NCBI GenBank assembly: GCA_003165595.1
Contig: PLWQ01000028.1
Span: 256,166 to 320,165 of the forward strand
DNA: 64,000 bases
Origin: Fibrobacterota bacterium
GTDB taxonomy: Bacteria; Fibrobacterota; Chitinivibrionia; Chitinivibrionales; FEN-1185
Direction: 5' to 3'
Part shown: positions 10,292 to 52,860 of the stretch, in pieces
Position numbering within the stretch: position 1 is the stretch's first letter
Layout of the letters: every line of letters begins with the position of its first letter
Made by a program: the position numbers and the translations under genes
The notes under the pieces: model-generated
Database searches by the model: none
What the model was told of the DNA's origin: nothing
What the model saw: the letters and a program-made list of their open reading frames with translations, nothing else

Positions 10292-10438
10292 CGGGTGTTT
10301 CCTTTTCCGGGCGTAAGATGCGCCAGCGGTACGGAGAAAATACCTCAAAGGGGGAATACCATCAATAGATTAACAAGCGAAGTTAGTAGAGCCGGACATG
10401 GAACCGATACTATATTATTTGATCCGCGCGCTGGTGGT

Positions 10439-10550
10439 GAAGACGCCCCGCAGCAAGCTGCGGGGCGTCTTCCATCCCTAAGGAAGAAGAAATTTATAGT
10501 CGTTTGCTAACCCCGAAGTAAGCTTCGAGGAATACGCAAACTTTGGGATT
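10439..10550. repeat. Structured intergenic repeat, family 1, copy near 10.5 kb
   Basis: Two hairpins in order. The first is perfect: 10439-10454 pairs with 10457-10472 around a two-base loop (GAAGACGCCCCGCAGC). The second is nested: GTTTGC (10502-10507) pairs with GCAAAC (10536-10541), enclosing CCCCGAAG / CTTCGAGG around taag. The related copy at 52673-52775 keeps the plan with different bases in both stems. The first hairpin could also end leftward or rightward transcripts, though no uridine run follows. Confidence 0.7.
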
Positions 10551-10582
10551 CAGCACTGCGGCAACACATCCGGAGCGAGCCT

Positions 10583-40700: not shown

Positions 40701-40840
40701 ATTGAAGAACCCCGCAGCACCACGACTACGACTGCATACAACACTACAGGAGTAGACGCGACAGCGAACCTTCGGGGACCGCGATTACAACCGGATGTAC
40801 ACCCCAGTGAGCAGCCTGCAATCCGCAAACTTTGGGATTT
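40701..40840 (+). repeat. Structured intergenic repeat, family 1, copy B (loop-insert variant)
   Basis: Positions 40701-40777 match 368-444 with few differences, including the shared 47-nt block between a CCCCG / CGGGG stem. Then GCGATT (40781-40786) faces AATCCGC (40820-40826), and the copy closes with gcaaactttgggattt, like the 10.5-kb copy. It occupies the leader between the radical SAM gene and the gene at 40876. Confidence 0.6.
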
Positions 40841-40875
40841 AAGGACAAAGTATCGTGCGTTGTTCTGATTTCGTA

Positions 40876-52637: not shown

Positions 52638-52672
52638 GATAATGGAATATACCACTTTTACGCATTGGGATT

Positions 52673-52775
52673 GAAGAACCCCGCCCCAAGTGGCGGGATT
52701 CTTCCTTAACTATGGAAATAATTTACTTTATATTCGCCCGCTAACCCCGCGCTAAGTCGCGGGGACTGCGCGGGC
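52673..52775. repeat. Structured intergenic repeat, family 1, copy near 52.7 kb
   Basis: Hairpin one: GAAGAACCCCGCC (52673-52685) pairs with GGCGGGATTCTTC (52692-52704), one mismatch. Hairpin two: GCCCGC (52736-52741) pairs with GCGGGC (52770-52775), enclosing CCCCGCG/CGCGGGG around ctaagt. The 10.5-kb copy has GTTTGC/GCAAAC and CCCCGAAG/CTTCGAGG at the same places, so the stems are kept while the bases change. Confidence 0.7.
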
Positions 52776-52785
52776 TGTGTTATTC

Positions 52786-52860
52786 ACCGCAAAGGCGGAA
52801 AGGACGCGAAGAAGGCGCAAAGAAAAGAAGACTCACCACGGAGACACGGAGGCGGGCTAT
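52786..52860. repeat. CACCACGGAGACACGGAG-type repeat remnant
   Basis: The stretch accgcaaaggcggaaaggacg ... gaagaaggcgcaaagaaaag ... actcaccacggagacacggag has the simple imperfect periodicity of a repeat that I have seen in many bacterial genomes, often as a remnant of the leader of GxxExxY-type genes. No gene of that type follows. It is a marker of a rearranged region. Confidence 0.45.

Follow-up and report, generated by a model that had tools for sequence, protein, structure and literature searches.

A widespread ~114-nt two-hairpin repeat with a fixed target and a covarying third helix, probably mobilised in trans as single-stranded DNA

Introduction

The insertion sequences IS608 and ISDra2 insert 3' of the short sequences TTAC and TTGAT, respectively, without duplicating the target, which is kept in the left flank; both carry hairpins close to their ends and operate on the lagging strand, and IS608 combines the right end TCAA with the guide GAAT (PMC5934647, PMC8612924, PMC6006769). 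Palindrome-associated transposable elements (PATEs) have been described in haloarchaea, namely in Haloquadratum (PMC3119063), and in one Halanaerobium (PMC7290912). Small mobile repeats (SMR) are known in Haloquadratum, and those of the SMR-A type prefer PATEs or IS605-type transposons as integration sites (PMC3119063). The sequences of REPs are described as species-specific (PMC6006769, PMC8266576, PMC3733652).

The repeat family considered here was met in a 64,000-nucleotide stretch of a Fibrobacterota genome (contig PLWQ01000028.1, positions 256,166–320,165), hereafter the window, whose forward strand is used for all coordinates. Common with the IS200/IS605 group are insertion 3' of a fixed short target (TTGAA, if read on the complementary strand) without duplication, subterminal imperfect hairpins and a lagging-strand bias, provided that GC skew is taken as the leading-strand mark; the CTTCAA and GAAG of the element resemble TCAA and the guide GAAT of IS608. 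It differs from this group in having neither tnpA nor tnpB, in its length of only ~114 nt and in the target TTGAA, while its third helix, P3, has no counterpart described for IS608 or ISDra2 in PMC5934647 and PMC8612924. High copy number, extragenic location, imperfect hairpins and apparent non-autonomy bring the element close to REPs, BIMEs and REPINs, but it has no GTAG or CGTC tag, contains two unlike hairpins, forms no REPtron and is not species-specific. Similarly to SMR it carries no gene, leaves its target unduplicated, has no known mobiliser and shows an inverted match of its ends (PMC3119063), but this match comprises only 5 nt, and no preference for PATEs or IS605-type transposons was seen here.

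Results

The earlier note described a two-hairpin repeat at positions 10439–10550 and 52673–52775, the stems of which keep pairing while changing their bases. Both copies are present there, though their true extent is slightly larger: they start with (T)TGAAG at 10438 and 52671 and end with ...GGGAT at 10549 and ...GTTAT at 52783, next to the target-derived TCA. Copy 1 proper (subfamily 'a', 10438–10548, 118 bits), bounded according to the sequence logo and empty sites in relatives, consists of hairpin 1 (GAAGACGCCCCGCAG-CAAG-CTGCGGGGCGTCTTC, 10439–10472, by sequence and folding), the 5' arm ATCCC of the covarying helix P3 (10474–10478), hairpin 2 (10502–10541, by folding and covariation) and the 3' arm GGGAT of P3 at the right end (10545–10549). 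The adjoining TTCA (10549–10552) is considered target-derived by empty sites elsewhere. Copy 2 proper (subfamily 'c', 52671–52782, 118 bits) is arranged in the same way, with hairpins 1 and 2 delineated by sequence and folding at 52673–52704 and 52736–52775, the P3 arms TTAAC (52706–52710) and GTTAT (52779–52783), which were found by the arm test described below and pair at four of five positions, and TTCA (52783–52786), ascribed to the target by analogy. The outer stem of hairpin 2 is GTTTGC/GCAAAC in copy 1 (10502–10507 and 10536–10541) and GCCCGC/GCGGGC in copy 2 (52736–52741 and 52770–52775), so that three pairs are altered on both sides, and the inner stems are CCCCGAAG/CTTCGAGG and CCCCGCG/CGCGGGG, exactly as it was claimed. 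Folding compared with 200 shuffles gave z values of −6.4 and −5.2 for copies 1 and 2, respectively.

The genome-wide search with a covariance model, which had been proposed as a check, returned 102 hits at E ≤ 0.1 for the 42 contigs (5.39 Mb) of the home genome, and the majority of these hits cover the model from end to end. The number of copies there is ~85–100 rather than the two noticed at the beginning. Within the phylum at least four related genomes, belonging to the same genus, the same family and another family of the same order, carry copies as well, with at least 21 in one of these genomes, and the exact core pattern gave at least 116 matches in metagenome-assembled genomes (MAGs, which most host genomes are) of Desulfobacterota, Nitrospirota, Bacteroidales and others. 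The family is not restricted to the home genome, and its sequence is conserved across phyla. Among plasmid-labelled records with copies those of Ca. Manganitrophus are the only ones with good coverage. The viral contigs and phages searched, in one case with the pattern of module A (see below) as a query, contained no copy. Matches of family f8 were excluded, as by eye they resemble ordinary terminators. A literature search for the core sequence returned no relevant paper.

The basic form is 112–116 nt long, typically ~114 nt. On the top strand the consensus of the wider family reads ATTGAAG-c-TCCCCGCAG-CAAG-CTGCGGGGAATCTTC-g-ACCG-TAAGG before the spacer and TTCGCTCGC-TAA-CCCCGCnG-CAAG-CnnCGGGG-AAT-GCGCTCGCT-nnn-CGGT-TCAA after it. 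GAAG/CTTC is a part of hairpin 1, hairpin 2 is composed of the inner stem and an outer GC-rich arm, and both hairpins lie near the two termini in all full copies. The expected excess of covariation over chance was registered: in an alignment of 23 sequences the score was 0.231 versus 0.104 in shuffled data (0/500 as high), with slid controls not exceeding 0.142, although the model was derived from copies of the home group and its alignments lean toward home-group structure. The outer stem is fully paired in two home-genome subfamilies (GTTTGC/GCAAAC and GCCCGC/GCGGGC), whereas 55 of 63 aligned copies have a conserved TC/TC mismatch at its two middle positions. Therefore the compensatory pairs pointed out in the earlier note are real in both copies, but represent a derived state of two subfamilies rather than a property of the wider family. 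Tandem G-A pairing of this stem on the complementary strand was a plausible idea, but the folding energies barely differ, favouring this strand only slightly.

The strongest covariation in the family, exceeding that of the outer stem, belongs to the third helix P3, in which the bases right after hairpin 1 pair with the last bases before TTCA. Its arms appear as ATCCC/GGGAT, TTGGC/GCCAT, TTGCC/GGCAT, TTCAC/GTGAT, ATAGG/CCTAT, ACCG/CGGT, AAATG/CATTT and ATGCA/TGCAT, as well as ATCTC/GAGAT within one genome. When the arms were located by sequence anchors, independently of the covariance model, the mean complementary run for 86 distinct arm pairs was 4.07 nt, versus 2.50 ± 0.10 nt after shuffling of arms among copies (500 shuffles, maximum 2.83).

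The element is mobile, since related genomes have empty sites. They were found at five loci of the Ca. Desulfaltia-like genomes compared (L351, L301, L355, L300 and L274), at the first three of which 114 nt are inserted directly 5' of TTCA(A). The insertion at L300, also empty in relatives, is 138 nt long; L274 is empty in a relative too diverged for reading the junction at base level. With junctions marked by ^, the occupied L301 reads ACTTTAG^TTGAAG...GCGG^TTCAAGTATG and its empty relatives ACTTTAA^TTCAAGTATG, ACTTCAG^TTCAAGTATA and TTTCAA^TTCAAGTATG; for L355 these are GGCTTTA^...^TTCAAATTCC and GGCTTTA^TTCAGATTCC, and no bases were lost upon insertion at these two loci. At L351 three relatives lack the element, and a single base beside the left junction differs. 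None of the empty-site loci, most junctions of which are readable at base level, has a target duplication. Beyond ATT^GAAG at the left end and T^TCA(A) at the right end the flanking sequence is random, and the element has a single orientation relative to its target. The ends share a 5-nt inverted match, TTGAA/TTCAA, the right part of which is derived from the target. In exact head-to-tail arrays with a common junction (three units at L268; also L190 and L217) TCA is not repeated between units, which agrees with its target origin. Read on the complementary strand, the insertion lies 3' of TTGAA and the right end is CTTCAA. The right-hand TTCA of L130, L132, L143, L068 and L195 directly adjoins a second repeat (CACCGCAAAGGCGCAAAG.. 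or CCACAGAGACACAGAG..) that looks dispersed, as though the two families had a common target.

Two more copies in the window are rearranged. The third one (369–530) contains the left end, hairpin 1, the loop of which holds module A, then module C and the right end ...GTGGGATTCA, and the fourth (40702–40841) the left end, modules A and B and the right end ...CGCAAACTTTGGGATTTA. In home-genome copies modules A, B and C occupy constant insertion points within the two hairpins. Module A (~52 nt, CACCACGACTACGACTGCAT..AGGAGTAG..) sits in the loop of either hairpin, and module B (~43 nt, CCGCGATTACAACCGGATGTAC..) after CGGGGA of either. These two, seen so far in the home genome alone, are present in many of its copies (L067–L096; in the window at 389–422, 40722–40755 and 40783–40814), and a weak relatedness between them is apparent (12 of 2000 shuffles score as high). 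Module C (GGCAAACGACATAATGC...AAGCGCGAAGCGCAAC..CCTTAGGGAACGAAGTGACAAT) occurs inside copies in direct or reverse orientation (440–511 in the window; L201, L202, L206, L218, L046 and L057), and its relatives are seemingly free-standing at L044 and L103. Shortened copies of 84 nt, in which hairpin 2 is missing, were met repeatedly and in several genomes (L194, L195, L196, L205, L209, L126:828–912, L232 in genome G001 and L244 in G030), and their junction is compatible with deletion between the direct repeats CGCTCGCT/CGCTCGCT. Such forms may be mobile in their own right; hairpin 2 may be dispensable, or they may represent repeat-mediated deletions. A possible distant cousin is a two-hairpin repeat of the same plan with the unrelated outer stem TCGGGTCTGA/TCAGACCCGA (L100/L160, and L105 in G108).

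Transposition in single-stranded form predicts that orientation of copies tracks replication. For 75 of 107 home-genome copies the window strand coincides with the C-rich strand, i.e. goes against GC skew, and the complementary strand with the G-rich one (contig sign-flip permutation, p ~0.001), with the reservation that the skew is weak and noisy in this draft assembly and that G>C was assumed to mark the leading strand; agreement with the net gene strand was observed for 47 of 107 copies. Excess of G over C usually marks the leading strand, and if so, we infer that the active strand is the lagging-strand template. The scaffolded MAG CP070768, with gap Ns, irregular skew and one copy in the sample, was unusable for estimating replication bias. 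Only 18–31% of copies are inside open reading frames, versus 71–81% of random positions, while both orientations of flanking genes are equally common and divergent gene pairs flank copies as often as other arrangements. Avoidance of genes without a preferred gene orientation speaks against terminators or leaders.

The presence of a RAYT or IS200-like transposase gene was another check proposed in the earlier note. Classical RAYT genes do occur in genomes carrying the element, but within 1.5 kb of Y1 loci a copy was found in 0 of 14 cases in the home group, and a clear copy within ~1.5 kb in 2 of ~30 cases in other phyla, which is not far from the expectation by copy density. Genomes G169 and G171, both with many copies, gave no Y1 match, though their assemblies may be incomplete. 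No element-like ends were found around the Y1 loci examined in this non-exhaustive survey, and 145-aa IS200-like elements were rejected as a parent, since their ends, compared by eye, are different. Neither an autonomous copy, recognisable by a gene between an orphan left half and an orphan right half, was registered in 80 loci, nor a version with an open reading frame among the fetched loci; in the sole apparent half-pair, 2.7 kb apart, the left half turned out to be a full element itself. At L036 the coding sequence of a 226-aa RAYT-like gene contains two in-frame palindromes (1298–1322 and 1477–1512; GTAGGGGCAGGTTCC.. and ..GGAACCCGCCCCTAC), which are GTAG-type REP-like sequences of a kind different from the element. 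The repeat flanking the gene of a 151-aa Y1 transposase at L035 (1100–2160) belongs to another family (CCCGGGGT..GCCCCGGGCCTGAAATATCTTGCCCCTTCAGGGCA).

Discussion

Based on these data one can assume that the repeat is probably a gene-less PATE-like element, which is non-autonomous and travels as folded single-stranded DNA with the help of an enzyme supplied in trans. The active strand would be the complement of the window strand, an assignment made after the target had been seen; on it the insertion would occur 3' of TTGAA, with the end CTTCAA and subterminal hairpins. An enzyme of the HUH (Y1-like) or a functionally similar type acting in trans may excise and insert the folded strand on the lagging-strand template, in the 'peel and paste' style of IS200/IS605. 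GAAG at the foot of hairpin 1 may pair with the terminal CTTC(AA), and both this pairing and P3 could play a guide or end-pairing role comparable to that of GR (GAAT) and CR (TCAA) of IS608. At the level of sequence, GAAG/CTTC complementarity and the covarying P3 fit such pairing of a guide with the cleavage site. Between the two functions suggested in the earlier note, RNA or a folded substrate of a transposase, the folded DNA substrate is the better option because of the empty sites, the absence of target duplication and the replication-linked orientation.

The likeness to PATEs includes the absence of genes, palindromes near the ends, a short fixed target oligonucleotide without duplication, repeat-mediated deletions of the core and frequent invasion by other small repeats, of which modules A, B and C of the home genome are reminiscent (PMC3119063); with 112–116 nt the element is likewise too short for a transposase. 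It differs in sequence conservation across phyla, in the 5-nt inverted match of the ends and in the extra covarying helix P3. It would work like an IS200/IS605-derived PATE, but does not qualify as such, since the Y1 loci examined include no parent IS605-type transposon whose ends match. A bolder reading, which we put forward only tentatively, is that the family represents a new class of transposable elements that are non-autonomous and move as single strands: mobile DNA of ~114 nt spread across phyla, with an internal guide (P3) that matches its own terminus and changes in step with it, moved on the lagging-strand template by a transposase or recombinase that has so far been assigned to no element.

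A double-strand enzyme, such as a DDE transposase, a serine or tyrosine recombinase or an RNA-guided recombinase of the IS110 type, could act instead on the short inverted ends TTGAA...TTCAA, with P3 being structural or a donor guide. The 5-nt inverted match, the lack of a Y1 gene linked to the element and the resemblance of P3 to an element-encoded guide to its own end are in line with this possibility, but single-strand transposition accounts better for the absence of target duplication, the single orientation to the target, the replication-biased orientation and the conserved subterminal hairpins, so that a double-strand enzyme is rather unlikely. Less credible still is a REP or BIME proper, mobilised by TnpA-REP (RAYT), which was the type of transposase supposed in the earlier note. 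Extragenic location, high copy number, imperfect hairpins and the RAYT genes conform to it, but GTAG/GTGG and CGTC tags are lacking, the ends are TTGAAG and TTCA, and ~114 nt with two different hairpins and P3 contrast with single hairpins of 20–65 nt. The GTAG-type palindromes of L036 and the repeat flanking L035 are other sequences, and the scarcity of copies near Y1 loci also disagrees with this origin. Strong covariation and stable hairpins could also reflect a structured regulatory RNA or a terminator that is retained because it serves the host and has spread through duplication, but this reading is very improbable: the element in the window and four loci has no Rfam match, there is no T-run, copies keep no constant orientation or position with respect to genes, and their presence among relatives is polymorphic. 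A MITE of a DDE transposon does not fit either, as neither the terminal inverted repeats of such a transposon nor target duplication was found.

Returning to a PATE-like element moved as single-stranded DNA, short palindromic repeats abound in many bacterial genomes, and the way of movement is known for only a minority of them. Here exact ends, empty sites, a fixed target, replication-linked orientation, a covarying terminal helix and sequence conservation across phyla are combined in one family; therefore its mobiliser is directly searchable, and the mechanism directly testable with single-stranded oligonucleotides. P3 provides natural variants for asking whether base pairing selects the cleavage site.
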